Below are positions 1,440 to 7,806 of a stretch of 64,000 bases of DNA, one piece after another. The DNA lies in assembly GCF_024138145.1 (NCBI RefSeq), contig NZ_CP099997.1:1984001-2048000 (forward strand), in the 5' to 3' direction. The translations under genes and the position numbers were made by a program. The stretch is from Natronosalvus halobius (GTDB lineage Archaea > Halobacteriota > Halobacteria > Halobacteriales > Natrialbaceae). Each line of letters starts with the position of its first letter. Position 1 is the stretch's first letter. The notes beneath the pieces are model-generated. The model worked only from the letters and a program-made list of their open reading frames with translations. It was not told where the DNA came from and did not search any database.

Positions 1440-4400
1440 ATGAAGCGACTTCTGTTCGCGTTTCTCGTCGCCGTGATCGTGAGCGGGTTGGTCGTCGGCG
1501 CTTCCGGATTGACGCTCGGGAGCGCTCCGCTCGCTGGTTCAGGAGACGGCGAGACGCAACCCGAATCCTCCGCTGGTGGCGATGCAATCGACGGAACAAG
1601 CGACGTTTCGGAGGACGGTGTCGAACTCGTCGAGTTCGACGAGACGCACTCGAGCGCACGACAGGACGAAGCGACTGCCCAGTCGAAGCGAGAGGCGGCC
1701 GAGGAGGGTGCCGACCGAGGGATCGAACTCGCCCAGGCACAGGGCGTAAACGTCACCCAGGAGCAACGAGAGGCCGCGACGTCCGCCGCCGTCGATGCCG
1801 TCGAACAACATCAGGAGGCGACCGTCGAGCAAGTTCAGCACGCCGCCACGGGTGCGGTTCACGGCGCGTTGCTTCAGCACCAGGCGGTCAACGTTACGCA
1901 GTTGCAGTCGGCCGTGACCGGCAGCGCGGACGGCGCGCTGAGCCAGCACCAATCGGCCAACGTCACGCAGATGCAGAACGCGGCGTGGGGCGGCGCTCAC
2001 GGTGCGCTGGACCAGTACCAGGCGGTGACGGTCGAGCAGATCCAGTACGCGGCTCGCGGGGCCGCCGCAGGCGCCGCACGAGAGGCCGGCGAGAAGGGAG
2101 TCGGTCACGTCGGCGTGATCCAGGAGGCCGCCCAGGGTGCGGCCCACGGGGCGCTCGAGGCCGCGAAGAAGCAGAAGCACCCCTCTCGACAGCACGTCGT
2201 CCAGCGCCAGGAGATAACCGTCGAGCAAATTCAACACGCGGCAGCAGGGGCGGCAGCGGGGGTCGTCGACGGGCACCAGGAACAGCACGTCAGGGTCGAG
2301 CAGCGACAGCACGTGTCGATCAAGCAGATTCAGACGGCTGCGATGGGCGCCGCGAAAGGCGCACTCGTCCAGAAGCAACGGGTCACCGTCGAGCAGACGC
2401 AGGTCGCCGCACGCGGCGCCGCGAAGGGCGTGCTGTCGGTTACGCAAATCCAGAGGGTAGAGATCACGCAGATCCAGGCGGCGGCGACCGGCGCCGCGAC
2501 GGGCGCGATCTACCAGAGCCAGGAGGCGACGGTCGAACAGATCCAGGCGGCGGCGATCGGCGCAGCGAAGGGAACGATTGTCCAGAAACAGGAAATTCAC
2601 GTGACGCAGGTCCAGTACGCCGCTCGCGGCGCCGCGATGGGCGCCGTCGAATCCGCGATCCAGTACCAGGCCGTCACCGTCACGCAGATCCAGGCCGCGT
2701 CGATGGGCGCCGGAAAAGGTGCCGTCGAACAGACGCAGACGGTGCGCGTACAGCAGGTACAGACGATCGCCCGCGGCGCGGCGAAAGGCGTCCTGTCGGT
2801 CGCCCAGGAACAGCGCGTGACGATCCTCCAGATACAGAAGGTGGCCGAAGTAACGTGCCAGTCGGTCTCGGAGACGGTTCAGGACCAGCGAGTCACCGTC
2901 GAGCAAGTTCAGCGGATCAGCGAACGTACCGCCGCGGACACGACCCAGCAGACGGTCGATGATGACCTCGACCGCGAGGTCGACATCCGCGAGCGTGCGG
3001 AGGCGAGCGCGGTCGATAGAACCGCCGAAGAAGAGCCTTCGGAGGGGGAGGCGACGGTGAGCACCGTCGGTCAGACGATCGACGGGGAGACGGTCACGAT
3101 CGACGACGTGACGCTCTCGGAGGGCGGATTCGTCGCCGTCCACGACGGGAGGTGGCTGGAAGGCGAACGCGCCGACAGCGTGATCGGCGTCTCCGAGTAC
3201 CTCGAGCCCGGCGAACACGAATCGGTGACCGTTCCCCTGTTCGAAGACGTTCCCGGTGCCGAGTACGAAGTCGACGCGCTCGAGGCCGGCGAGCACTCGC
3301 TCTTCGTCGTCCCGTATCGCGACGGCGACGACGACCAGGTGTTCGATCGCATCGACACCGACGACGGGGCGGATCCGCCGTACGTCCGGCAGGGTGGCGA
3401 ACCGGTGGTGGCATCGCTCGAGGCGACGGTCGCCGAGGAACGCACCGCCGACCTCGAGGTCGCCGACCAGACCGGGGAGGGTGAAACGGTGACCGTCGAG
3501 CGCGCGACGGCGAACGTCGAATTCTACGTCGAGGCGAGCGACGGCGACCGGGTCGTCCAGAGCGAGGGATTCGGGGCGAACGAGACCGCCGCCAATCTGA
3601 CGCTCGATCTGGACCCGCCGCTCGAGGAGGCTACCGACCTCGAGGTGACGATCCGTGCCGTCGAGGACGGTGAGGGACTCGAGTCGGCGGAGCTCGAGTA
3701 CGACGTCGACGCCGCCGGCGCCGACGAACCGGCGGAGGCGACGGCGAGCCTGAACGTTTCGGACCAGGCCGGCGACGGCGAGACGCTGTCCGTCGATCGG
3801 GCGACCGCGGACGAGGAGTTCGCAGTCGAAGCGCGCTACGACGGCGAGGTGGTACGAACCGACGCTATCGATGCCGACGAGGTCGTCGAGAACCTGACGC
3901 TCGAACTCGATCCGCCCCTCGAGGCGGATGCAGAGGTCGAGATCGCCGTCGTAACGACCGAAGACGACGAGGACCTGGCCGTCGAAGCGATCGAGTACGC
4001 CGTCGATGCGGAACCGGTCGAGCCGACGGCCGATCTCGAGGTGACGGACCAGACCGGCGACGGGGGGACCCTCGCCGTCGAAAACGCCACCGCGACTGTC
4101 GACTTCTTCGTCGATGCTCGTTACGACGATGAGGTGGTGCAAAGCGAATCGTTCGACGCGGACGAGGTCGTCGAGAACCTGACGCTCGAACTCGATCCAC
4201 CCCTCGAGGAGACCAGCGACGTCGAGGTCGCCGTCAGAGCCGACGACGACGATTCGGAACTGACGGGTCAGACGATCGAGTACGCCGTCGAGGCTCCGGT
4301 GGCGTTCCTCAATTGTACCGCGCTCGAGGTCCGGGACGCGGCCGAAATCGATCGCCTCTCGCTACGCGTCTCGTACCTGGAGGGGCCCCTGGCGGGTAAC

Positions 4401-5699
4401 GAGACGGAACTCGAGGAGGAAGTGCTCGCGGAGACGGTCGACGGCCCGATCGAAGACGGGACCGTCCTCTCGACGGCCGATCTGTACCCCTTTAGCGAGT
4501 TCACCCACTACGTCGAGTTCGCGTCCCTCTCCGAAGCCGACGACGAGAACGTCGTCGAGAATCCGCACCCCGCGACCGTCGAGGACTGTCAGGAACTCGG
4601 CTTCGGCGAGCGCCCGACCGCCGACGTCGCGTTCGGCGACCAGGAGACCGACGGGACGAGCGCGACCGTCGACACCGTTTCGCTCTCGGAAGGCGGCTTC
4701 GTCGCCCTCTACGAAGCAGGAGCGCCGATCGAGGACGAGGCCGTCCTCGGCGTCTCCGAGTACCTCGAGCCCGGCGAGCACGAGAACGTCACCGTCGACC
4801 TCGCGGAATCGATCGACGAGGACCGAACGCTCGTCGCGATCGTCCACCGCGATCTGACCGACGACGGCCAGTTTACGTTCGAGAGCGTCGACGAAATCGG
4901 CGTCCACGACGGCCCGTACCTCGACGCGGACGGCGACCCCGTCGCCGACGAGGCCGAACTCACCCTCTCGGCCGAGTTCGCCGTCTCCATCGTCGACGCG
5001 CCGGAAACCGTCGAGCCCGACCAGCCGATCGAACTCGCCGTCGAGGTGGAGAACCGCGGCGCCGGTCCCGGCGAGGCGCCCGTGGTGATCGGCGTCGGTG
5101 CGCAGGAGGCGGTCGTCGAAGAGTCCGTCACGCTTTCACCCGGCGAGACGACGACGCTCACGGTGGCCGTCGACCCGCCGACCGACGCCGTCGGCGAACT
5201 CGAGGTGACAGTTCGCGTCGACGACCCAGACGTGGCTGCGCCCGAGGAGGGAAGCGATTCGGTGACCGTCACCGTCGAGGAGGCCGGCGAACCGGCGTTC
5301 GAGGTGACGGCCCTCGACGCACCCGAAACCGTCGAGGCAGGCGAGTCCATCGAGGTCGCCGCGGAGGTGACGAACGTCGGTGCGGCTCCCGGTGAAGCCG
5401 AAGTGGTGTTCGACATCGACGGCTTCGACGCCGCTACCGATTTCGTCTCGCTCTCTCCCGACGAAACGGCGACGCTCGTCGTCACCGTCGAGACCGGCCC
5501 GGGCGACGTGGGCGACCTCGAGATCGGGGTTCGCACGGCCGATGACCGGACGTCGACGACTGTCGAGGTGATCGAGTCTTCGGATGGAGGCGACCAGCAG
5601 GACGCTCGAGCGGGACCGACGGCTGGGACGGATCCGGCAGTCTCGGCGTCCGCGTACGTACCGAGCTATCTGATCTCGGTCGATCGAGTGGATTCGTAG
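1440..5699 (+). CDS. Giant secreted surface protein with Gln/Ala repeats, DUF7282-like and CARDB-like domains
   Basis: A 1,419-residue protein starting with an apparent Sec signal peptide (MKRLLFAFLVAVIVSGLVVG). Residues ~30-115 are an acidic linker. Residues ~120-500 are about 16 copies of a 22-24-residue unit with the pattern Q-x-Q-x-V-x-V-x-Q-I-Q-x-A-A-x-G-A-A-x-G-A. Next come a domain with EGGFVAVHDG and YLEPGEHESV motifs (~540-665, DUF7282-like), three ~90-residue beta-rich repeats (~667-950), a Cys-containing domain (~950-1055), a second EGGFVALYEA/YLEPGEHENV domain (~1057-1180) and two CARDB-like beta-sandwiches (~1182-1380). No C-terminal transmembrane or PGF-type anchor is visible, so it may be secreted or held non-covalently. 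The function is unknown, and the long frames on the other strand are shadows of its biased codon use. Confidence 0.85.
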   Translation: MKRLLFAFLVAVIVSGLVVGASGLTLGSAPLAGSGDGETQPESSAGGDAIDGTSDVSEDGVELVEFDETHSSARQDEATAQSKREAAEEGADRGIELAQAQGVNVTQEQREAATSAAVDAVEQHQEATVEQVQHAATGAVHGALLQHQAVNVTQLQSAVTGSADGALSQHQSANVTQMQNAAWGGAHGALDQYQAVTVEQIQYAARGAAAGAAREAGEKGVGHVGVIQEAAQGAAHGALEAAKKQKHPSRQHVVQRQEITVEQIQHAAAGAAAGVVDGHQEQHVRVEQRQHVSIKQIQTAAMGAAKGALVQKQRVTVEQTQVAARGAAKGVLSVTQIQRVEITQIQAAATGAATGAIYQSQEATVEQIQAAAIGAAKGTIVQKQEIHVTQVQYAARGAAMGAVESAIQYQAVTVTQIQAASMGAGKGAVEQTQTVRVQQVQTIARGAAKGVLSVAQEQRVTILQIQKVAEVTCQSVSETVQDQRVTVEQVQRISERTAADTTQQTVDDDLDREVDIRERAEASAVDRTAEEEPSEGEATVSTVGQTIDGETVTIDDVTLSEGGFVAVHDGRWLEGERADSVIGVSEYLEPGEHESVTVPLFEDVPGAEYEVDALEAGEHSLFVVPYRDGDDDQVFDRIDTDDGADPPYVRQGGEPVVASLEATVAEERTADLEVADQTGEGETVTVERATANVEFYVEASDGDRVVQSEGFGANETAANLTLDLDPPLEEATDLEVTIRAVEDGEGLESAELEYDVDAAGADEPAEATASLNVSDQAGDGETLSVDRATADEEFAVEARYDGEVVRTDAIDADEVVENLTLELDPPLEADAEVEIAVVTTEDDEDLAVEAIEYAVDAEPVEPTADLEVTDQTGDGGTLAVENATATVDFFVDARYDDEVVQSESFDADEVVENLTLELDPPLEETSDVEVAVRADDDDSELTGQTIEYAVEAPVAFLNCTALEVRDAAEIDRLSLRVSYLEGPLAGNETELEEEVLAETVDGPIEDGTVLSTADLYPFSEFTHYVEFASLSEADDENVVENPHPATVEDCQELGFGERPTADVAFGDQETDGTSATVDTVSLSEGGFVALYEAGAPIEDEAVLGVSEYLEPGEHENVTVDLAESIDEDRTLVAIVHRDLTDDGQFTFESVDEIGVHDGPYLDADGDPVADEAELTLSAEFAVSIVDAPETVEPDQPIELAVEVENRGAGPGEAPVVIGVGAQEAVVEESVTLSPGETTTLTVAVDPPTDAVGELEVTVRVDDPDVAAPEEGSDSVTVTVEEAGEPAFEVTALDAPETVEAGESIEVAAEVTNVGAAPGEAEVVFDIDGFDAATDFVSLSPDETATLVVTVETGPGDVGDLEIGVRTADDRTSTTVEVIESSDGGDQQDARAGPTAGTDPAVSASAYVPSYLISVDRVDS
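1800..2960 (+). repeat. Array of ~23-residue Gln/Ala repeats within the surface protein
   Basis: The coding repeat has a period near 66-72 bp, and the units are divergent in DNA but conserved in protein. Each pairs a beta-like Gln-alternating half (for example QAVTVEQIQ) with a helix- or turn-like AAxGAAxGAL half. DNA divergence together with protein conservation argues for selection on the pattern rather than recent expansion. Confidence 0.8.
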
Positions 5700-5798: not shown

Positions 5799-6155
5799 TT
5801 ACGGTGCGCCCGTAACGACCATCAGCGAGTCGTCCGCCGTAAACCGCAGTTCGCGCGTCGTCTCCGGGTCGACGCGAACGGCGTCACCGGACGCGAGGTC
5901 GACCTGGTCGCCGTCGATTTGGATGGTCGCCTCGCCCTCGATCAACAGGTACACTTCCTCCTGGCCGTCGTCTTCGTGGTCGTGTTCCAGGCCGTCCCAG
6001 CCCTCGTCGGCTTCGATGACGGTTAGCCCGTGCGTCTCGCAGTCGAGCGCGTCCCGAAGGAAGGACATACCCGGCGCGCGCGGTTCGACATCCTCGTACG
6101 AGGTTGCGTCGTACCCCGTGACATCCTCCTCGCCGTTGACGGCGAGGCTTCCCAC
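5799..6155 (-). CDS. Cupin domain protein with IS-derived N-terminus
   Basis: A 118-residue single-domain cupin. The segment HDHEDDGQEEVYLLIEGEA carries the conserved His and Glu positions of cupin motif 1, and GDAVRVDP with the following beta strands forms motif 2. The substrate is unknown; small haloarchaeal cupins of this type are common. The native sequence appears to begin at TGYDATSYEDVEP. The only in-frame start upstream is a GTG at 6155 that lies inside the right-end hairpin of the neighbouring tnpB element, so the first ~11 residues (V/MGSLAVNGEED) are encoded by the IS. The native start and promoter have probably been lost or replaced, and expression is uncertain. Confidence 0.75.
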   Translation of the reverse strand: MGSLAVNGEEDVTGYDATSYEDVEPRAPGMSFLRDALDCETHGLTVIEADEGWDGLEHDHEDDGQEEVYLLIEGEATIQIDGDQVDLASGDAVRVDPETTRELRFTADDSLMVVTGAP

Positions 6156-6276
6156 GCATGGGGAATACCAGTCAGTCGCCGTCTCCAGAACTTTCGGTTC
6201 TGGCGGGCTGCACGAGACTTTTAGTCTCGTGAACGCTGGCAGAGGGTTTCGACTCTTCGCAGGCCGTGAGCGTCAT
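6128..6276 (-). ncRNA. Candidate omega RNA / right-end structured RNA of tnpB
   Basis: Downstream of the tnpB stop, three perfect short hairpins (stems of 9, 7 and 9 bp) stand close together and end at the element boundary. TnpB nucleases use an RNA made from the 3' part of tnpB plus the right end, with the guide read from the flanking DNA. Here the guide would be the N-terminal region of the cupin gene. The RNA itself is inferred; only the hairpins are seen. Confidence 0.5.
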
Positions 6277-7482
6277 CTACGCTGGTATGCTCTGCTCACA
6301 GTGAGTCGTGGCGGTGTCACAACCGCTCCCATCCCGAGGCGAGTCATCGCGCTCCGCCTTGTCAAGCGGGACGCTCTCTCCCCACGGGTCAACCCGCCGT
6401 GCGATATTCGCGGAAGCGTTGATGTCGGCCTGAAACGTCGAAACGTGGCAGTCGTCGTGCGGACACCGGAACTCAGCCTGGGAGTCCCGCCGACCGATAC
6501 GGTGGCACGAGTGGCACGTCTTCGAGGTGTACGCCGGGTTCACGTACTCGACCGGGATGCCTGCTTCCGTCGCCTTGTCCTCGATGCGCCCTTGGAGTCG
6601 GGCGAACGCCCACGAGTGAAGCCGACGGTTCATGTACTTCCCGTAGTCGAGACGCTCACGGATGTACGTCAAGTCCTCCATCACCAACACCGGATTCTCG
6701 AACTGTTTGGTGTACTGGACAGCCTGCCGAGACGCTTTCTCCACGATGTCGGTGAATGCGTTCTGGTAGTGCGAGAAGCGGTCGTCGGTACGCCACTCGG
6801 ATGCGTCACGCTCTTGGAGTCGTTTCAGGGTGGTGTGCATCTCTTTGCGGAGATGCTTCGCTCTGCTTCCGCTACACACGAACGGGTCAGTCGGAGAACC
6901 GTCCTTGAGGGCACAGCCCGTGATGAGGGCAGTCTCTCCGATGTCTAAGCCGATGTGCGTGGTGTCACCGTCCGTTGCTGGTTCTTCGACCAGGTACTCG
7001 ACGGTGACATGCAGTACCCAGTTCTTCCGGTGCTTCTGAAGCCGTATCTCGCCCGCTTTCGCGTCCTCCGTTACGAGGGCGTGCCAGAGGTCCTCCTGTT
7101 CGGGATTGATGCGGAGCGGAATCCAAAAGTTCGTTCCCCGACCGGGACGGGGAACCCACCACGTGAATTCGTAGCGACGTTCTTCGGAGCGGTCGAACGT
7201 CGCGGCTTGGTTCGTGAGGCGTATCGGGTGTTCGTCGTCCAATTCTTTCGCGTTGTACGTCTTGTGGAGTTTCGGGACGTAGTTGCAGAGGGCGGCTTTG
7301 GCCTGATACGGCAGGTCGTAGGGCGTCACGATGTCACTCACCGCCGACATGGTACTCGCCCCGGCGTCGAACGCTTCTTGCAGACCGTCACGGTAGGTTT
7401 CGAGCAGGTCGTTCAGTTTCGACTGCTTGTGCGCGGTCGGTGGGGCGAACGTCGCTTGAAGCGTCTTAGTTATCGTCGTCAC
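6277..7482 (-). CDS. tnpB: RNA-guided nuclease TnpB (IS605 OrfB family)
   Basis: A 401-residue TnpB with a GTG start at 7482. All RuvC catalytic positions are visible: Asp in HIGLDIGETALI (~185), Glu in VLVMEDLTYI (~275) and Asp in FQADINASANIA (~358). The zinc ribbon is present between them as CHSC and CPHDDC (~325-350). The N-terminal region contains the WED/REC-type segment with YNAKELDDEHPIRLTNQ. The length is normal for the family and no frameshift is seen, so the nuclease should be functional. Its start overlaps the end of the small upstream ORF by 17 nt, which suggests translational coupling. Confidence 0.92.
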   Translation of the reverse strand: MTTITKTLQATFAPPTAHKQSKLNDLLETYRDGLQEAFDAGASTMSAVSDIVTPYDLPYQAKAALCNYVPKLHKTYNAKELDDEHPIRLTNQAATFDRSEERRYEFTWWVPRPGRGTNFWIPLRINPEQEDLWHALVTEDAKAGEIRLQKHRKNWVLHVTVEYLVEEPATDGDTTHIGLDIGETALITGCALKDGSPTDPFVCSGSRAKHLRKEMHTTLKRLQERDASEWRTDDRFSHYQNAFTDIVEKASRQAVQYTKQFENPVLVMEDLTYIRERLDYGKYMNRRLHSWAFARLQGRIEDKATEAGIPVEYVNPAYTSKTCHSCHRIGRRDSQAEFRCPHDDCHVSTFQADINASANIARRVDPWGESVPLDKAERDDSPRDGSGCDTATTHCEQSIPA

Positions 7483-7609
7483 TGGCGTCTAACCCTTTCT
7501 CGATTAGTTCGGCGTAGGCGCGAGGATGTCGGATGCCATTGTCGCGGGCGTACTCTTTCACCCGCTCGTGGAGGTCGCCCCCTCGCTCCATATCGATTTC
7601 AGTTCGCAC
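7466..7609 (-). CDS. Small RHH-like protein encoded upstream of tnpB
   Basis: A 47-residue frame from GTG 7609 to TAA 7466, with an alternative ATG at 7591. The sequence begins VRTEIDMERGGDLHERVKEY and continues with RHPRAYAELIEKGL. A short beta-like N-terminus followed by two helices resembles a ribbon-helix-helix or antitoxin-like fold. It overlaps tnpB by 17 nt in another frame. Small ORFs in this position occur beside other haloarchaeal tnpB genes, which suggests they are part of the element, perhaps as a regulator. That role is inference. Confidence 0.6.
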   Translation of the reverse strand: MRTEIDMERGGDLHERVKEYARDNGIRHPRAYAELIEKGLDASDDDN

Positions 7610-7702
7610 AACTCTTTGAACGTTTTCTTGGTGCTAATAACTTCTGTTTGGCATTCAGACTGCTGTAGACGGTGGGTTGCGTAGTCAAGTGGCGCGATTC
7701 AC

Positions 7703-7752
7703 GCCCGCCGTGGACGGCGGGATTCTCTCGCTGTTCAAAGATAGGAGAATCC
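7703..7752 (+). repeat. Two hairpins resembling a second IS605 right-end remnant
   Basis: CCCGCCGT/ACGGCGGG forms a tight hairpin close to the form of the tnpB right-end hairpin at 6128-6147 but on the opposite strand. It is followed by GGATTCTC...GAGAATCC, an 8-bp inverted repeat with a 17-nt loop. No tnpB ORF is attached, so this could be the solitary end of another element or a terminator for the leftward LarA-like gene. Confidence 0.4.
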
Positions 7753-7806
7753 TCGCACTCGTCGCCTAAGAAACCACGCGAAGCGGAACGTGACCGCCGA
7801 CAAGCG

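Follow-up and report, generated by a model that had tools for sequence, protein, structure and literature searches.

A tnpB element in the start codon of a haloarchaeal cupin gene apparently provides an in-phase replacement start

The DNA analysed here (the window) is a stretch of 64,000 nucleotides from the Natronosalvus halobius contig NZ_CP099997.1. An insertion element of 1,623 bp occupies positions 6118..7740 of its minus strand. The element contains tnpB (6277..7482, minus, 401 aa), whose product matches PF07282 (Cas12f1-like_TNB, 62.5 bits, cut-off 26.3), and upstream of tnpB a 41-aa ORF (7466..7591, minus), to which no Pfam family was matched. OrfB_IS605 (PF01385) was not reported for TnpB in the Pfam profile search at E 0.001, and no tnpA was seen in the element, the minus strand of 7740-6118 holding tnpB and the 41-aa ORF. 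The boundaries were drawn from aligned copies: copies elsewhere in the same genome and in the genus match at the right end (6118) only up to ...GATGTCAC and then diverge, and at the left end (7740/7741) the copies align from CTTTGAACAG on. In 14 of 17 distinct sites the flank at the left end is CTAT, and no duplicate of CTAT is present at the right end, a pattern of insertion 3' of a short fixed target without target duplication. The TnpB domain, the lack of tnpA and this mode of insertion are, judged from sequence features, those of the IS1341-type members of the IS200/IS605 family. Positions 1440-5699 of the window encode a 1419-aa surface-type protein (DUF7282) with long VTVEQIQ-type repeats, for which dN/dS was 0.29-0.35 in the C-terminal 499 codons.

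The right end of the element consists of a GC-rich hairpin (8-bp, z -3.99 for 6118-6260) followed by GGATGTCAC. The guide of an omegaRNA is the segment directly after the right end of the element; a putative guide segment, assigned by position only, would thus comprise the 20 nt at 6098..6117 (minus), which are at the same time cupin 5' coding sequence. According to PMC12558985, haloarchaeal IS200/IS605 (IS1341-type) elements have sotRNA/omegaRNA at the 3' end of tnpB. The arrangement found here, tnpB and then a structured right end, resembles that of these elements, and a role of the right end as omegaRNA is suggested by family knowledge together with that text (PMC12558985). In contrast to these elements, the right end described here is at the same time the beginning of the cupin coding sequence, and no match to the Rfam omegaRNA models was obtained on the element at E 0.1.

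The cupin ORF (5799..6155, minus, 118 aa) starts with a GTG in the right end of the element, terminates at the native TAA stop and has the N-terminus MGSLAVNGEEDVTGYDATSYEDVEP. The protein matches Cupin_2 (PF07883) with 37 bits (profile search, cut-off 27.2), and H58, H60 and E66, which form the conserved HxH...E that we take to be cupin motif 1, are invariant in 25 of 25 aligned homologues. As the first-pass annotation had proposed, the cupin frame enters the right end of the tnpB element: the first 38 nt of the ORF (6118..6155, minus) lie within the right-end hairpin, and GTG 6155, 12 codons upstream of the boundary, is the sole start (ATG, GTG or TTG) in the cupin frame on the element side; the uninterrupted frame comprises 157 codons in each of the three genomes that carry the junction (G000, which is the genome of the window, G002 and G007). 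The codons from 6155 to 6118 are GTG GGA AGC CTC GCC GTC AAC GGC GAG GAG GAT GTC AC, and the open frame of the right end, VGSLAVNGEEDV, is in phase with the cupin. The annotation had correctly read the element-encoded stretch GSLAVNGEED and had counted 11 residues; this number has to be corrected, as 38 nt correspond to 12 residues plus two bases of an ACG codon. The native cupin sequence begins at 6117, directly after the element, and the alignment of homologues places native codons 2 onward, GYDATSYEDVEP...GAP, at 5802..6116 (minus). An element-derived N-terminus should be missing from homologues that lack the element: the residues GSLAVNGEEDV were encoded in frame upstream of none of 20 element-free homologues inspected, and in the alignment, whose element-free rows we had trimmed at or near the start, the 12-residue extension is present in only three of 25 rows, all of them element-bearing.

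The earlier statement that the native start is no longer visible has to be modified: the codon has been cut between T and G, and both parts persist. The left flank ends with the target CTAT (7741..7744, minus), whose AT (7742-7741) is the AT of the native ATG, and the right flank from 6117 reads G GGG TAC GAC, position 6117 being the third base (G) of the ATG. When the flanks were rejoined in silico, CT ATG GGG TAC GAC was obtained, which encodes MGYD; cupin homologues without the element start with MGYD (L012, L013, L014), MSYD or similar. The last bases of the right end are TCAC, so that the start codon is now ACG (6119-6117); as AC has simply taken the place of AT, any gene cut AT|G will automatically be in phase with the right-end frame. 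The element-free allele of the locus is predicted to read ...CTCCTATGGGGTACGAC. No such empty site was found for the cupin locus; in the five genomes of the genus other than those carrying the junction there is no close match to the cupin, the cupin matches obtained there having 29-42% identity.

A peak of A+T near -30..-27 is the pattern expected of leaderless haloarchaeal genes. In the 45 nt upstream of 31 native homologues, the A+T content was 0.81-0.87 at -30..-27 and mostly 0.16-0.48 at the other positions. The native cupin promoter has a TATA-like TTTCTTA (7767..7773, minus), which falls at -31..-25 from the native ATG with the flanks joined and now lies upstream of the element. The corresponding sequence in G002 and G007 is TTTCATA, so that the displaced promoter has been kept in all three species. 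Taken together, these features suggest that an element targeting CTAT entered a CTATG containing the start codon of the cupin gene, which was then leaderless; that CTAT and the promoter stayed beyond the left end and the final G at the right end can be read directly from the flanks.

The insertion is base for base identical in G000, G002 and G007; among the seven genomes of the genus other than G000, the junction is thus present in two. For the native part of the cupin, NG86 dN/dS values of 0.087, 0.151 and 0.127 were obtained for the three species pairs (Fisher p 4e-6, 6e-5 and 3e-7, respectively), estimates that rest on small counts. The variable sites in 105 codons of the three species are distributed over codon positions 1, 2 and 3 as 5, 5 and 22, none of the three cupins contains a frameshift or a stop, and the G000 and G002 proteins share 97% identity. 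The first-pass annotation had left open whether the insertion created a fusion ORF or broke the gene. The recurrence of the same junction and frame in two other species and the constraint seen in dN/dS and codon positions show that the junction is more than a chance open frame, and the purifying selection favours a working fusion ORF. A broken gene, with the open frame as a remnant in decay, could be argued for from the 1.6 kb that now separate the native promoter and start from the frame, and from a parallel case (G005, see below) in which no start codon is present in the right-end frame; taking into account dN/dS values of 0.09-0.15 in three species after the insertion, the 5, 5, 22 pattern and the intact frames, we consider this very improbable, and the cupin was not simply broken.

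Assuming a single insertion, these data show that the insertion is older than the split of the three species and that the cupin has been under purifying selection since. Synonymous divergence bears on this assumption: dS was 0.11-0.18 for tnpB, 0.09-0.24 for the flanking genes and 0.19-0.31 for the cupin. Separate insertion events at one and the same base, or exchange of the fused locus among the three species by transfer, would be compatible with the site specificity of the elements for CTAT and with a tnpB dS somewhat below that of the cupin. However, the tnpB values are inside the range of the flanking genes, which fits one old insertion, and the three species have the same gene order around the locus; the probability of several insertions or of transfer thus appears small. 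One ancestral insertion is assumed in what follows.

The element itself has fared differently in the three lineages. In G002 tnpB looks intact (436 aa) and stops 16 nt before the GTG. In G000 an in-frame TAG (6277-6279) removes about 35 aa relative to G002, and tnpB ends 121 nt before the GTG, and in G007 tnpB has a one-base insertion, its stop being 16 nt before the GTG; the two lesions are independent events. For tnpB a dN/dS of 0.16-0.20 was calculated. With tnpB damaged in two of three lineages and the cupin constrained, the cupin appears to have been maintained while the element began to decay. The 38-nt coding stretch derived from the element has no variable column in the three species (0/38, against 8/121 in the rest of the right end). 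This invariance was dropped as evidence of coding use, because slow change is seen in the remainder of the right end as well, and constraint on the hairpin would have the same effect.

How the fused gene is started can be approached from the sequence around GTG 6155. Neither a TATA-like sequence near -28 nor an evident close-range Shine-Dalgarno motif could be read upstream of this codon. GTG 6155 must therefore be a leadered start if it is used; for lack of a TATA-like sequence near -28, leaderless initiation was discarded both for this codon and for ATG 6159, which is out of frame. Most likely, a transcript would run through tnpB, either from the displaced cupin promoter or from a tnpB promoter, and initiation de novo at GTG 6155 would yield a cupin with a 12-residue N-terminal tail. 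The tail is probably disordered, as residues 1-15 of the model of the fused cupin have pLDDT below 50 (model mean 69). Translational coupling to tnpB was considered on account of the 16-nt gap in G002 and G007, and was downgraded: the gap is 121 nt in G000, and in Haloferax volcanii a gap of about 20 nt nearly abolishes coupling, according to PMC10666635. Coupling of the cupin to tnpB translation is thus unlikely.

Alternatively, translation of the cupin could begin at the hybrid ACG (6119-6117) or at the ATG of M30. GTG 6155 lies within or beside a hairpin predicted to be stable and has no visible ribosome-binding signal, and the in-frame internal ATG (VEPRAPGM) is conserved, both of which would agree with such a start. 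On the other hand, no TATA-like element was seen near -28 of either the ACG or the M30 ATG, and a start at M30 would remove the conserved N-terminal segment. The native N-terminal 49 nt do not differ between G000 and G002, compared with 18 differences in the remaining 270 nt, and Y20, V23 and neighbouring residues are near-invariant among the 25 homologues. In view of this conservation we regard a start at ACG or M30 as improbable. It counts against the fusion model, on the other side, that both changes in the 49 nt, found in G007, alter amino acids. Use of GTG 6155 is thus the preferred reading, and predicts the N-terminal peptide GSLAVNGEEDVTGYD / GSLAVNGEEDVTGYDATSYEDVEPR. The account as a whole, from the split start codon and the in-phase right end to read-through transcription and initiation at GTG 6155, is in our judgement probable.

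IStrons are reportedly IS insertions that do limited damage to the host gene. The case described here is similar in that damage to the host gene is limited, and differs in that there is no self-splicing and the host protein gains a tail instead of being restored. In Coxiella, the element QMITE2 supplies the C-terminus of enhC, according to PMC5896051. As with QMITE2 and enhC in that text, the end of a mobile element has turned coding and provides one end of a host frame; here, in contrast, the start codon is the target, the outcome is determined by the use of CTAT as target and by the phase in which the right end can be read, and the element is of the tnpB type and not a MITE (PMC5896051). At the level of titles and the beginnings of abstracts, no precedent for splitting of a start codon by an IS605-type element was found in the open-licence literature. 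The locus is a concrete case of a transposon that cut a start codon while the gene stayed under selection, apparently owing to an in-phase replacement start in the transposon end. It connects the choice of target by TnpB elements with an effect on host genes that can be predicted, and it shows that element ends have to be taken into account when genes are called and start sites curated in haloarchaea. It also poses the question whether one stretch of RNA can serve as omegaRNA scaffold and encode the start of a protein at the same time.

To assess recurrence, 125 genomes of the family were searched with a pattern for right ends of this type plus a following G, which gave 23 matches, spread over 17 genomes; the same was done for 391 genomes of the class (matches in 31), a set that overlaps with the first. 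With the cupin insertion counted once, 40 distinct sites were obtained, of which 38 were read (G403:C93 and G186:C2 were left out). An ATG was split AT|G at three of the 38 sites, the cupin, G005 (L097) and G310 (L123). Open frames of at least 60 codons were present at 8 of 38 sites, including the three start splits; the frame at L087 has its own start downstream, and those at L107, L109, L119 and L121 were judged non-coding, in all five cases by eye only. In G005, a related element with a different TnpB lies between CTAT and GGGGAATGAA and splits the ATG of a membrane-type protein (MGNEF); two true empty sites (L146 and L147, in G001 and G003) have the unbroken start CATCTATG, and no start codon was found in the right-end frame of the G005 element. 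In G310 a related element (L123:2308-3474) with a 130-aa ORF, presumably tnpA-like, and a tnpB ORF splits the ATG of the MARIAVLHN gene, which we take to be glycosyltransferase-like, and the right-end frame has a TTG 13 codons up. The element-free relative G322 (L144) reads CTATGGCTCGG; since the left flank in G310 is CGAT and does not match G322, the locus has probably been rearranged since. That one of three splits has no replacement start speaks against automatic rescue, and three start-codon hits in 38 sites may be near chance, so no enrichment is claimed; the window contains 22 CTATG on both strands. A broader possibility, which we put forward with considerable doubt, is that CTAT-targeting haloarchaeal tnpB elements act as start-codon swappers: hits in CTATG would give N-terminally tagged genes driven through the element, with omegaRNA scaffold and guide in the host mRNA, and TnpB-omegaRNA processing might regulate the tagged gene. 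On this view, as the target ends in AT, every hit in CTATG would convert the start to ACG and place the gene in phase with the open frame of the right end, which would often have a GTG, ATG or TTG 12-13 codons upstream.

In G002 a second tnpB element (L039:3806-5329; tnpB of 446 aa with PF01385 and PF07282) has its right end, ...GGATGTCAA, in the last cupin codon. Its target is TTAC on the plus strand, equivalent to positions 5799-5802 of the window, and the cupin end has changed from CCG TAA to CCT TGA, so that the protein ends in the same residue and the second element provides the stop. The G002 cupin thus sits between two convergent tnpB elements, and both its start and stop codons apparently derive from mobile elements. 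Shortly upstream of the first element G002 alone has a rhodanese gene (PF00581, L039:7460-7834), which is absent in G000 and G007, and at L039:11346-11569 the same genome matches the omegaRNA family sot0042 weakly, with 38.5 bits where the gathering score is 88.
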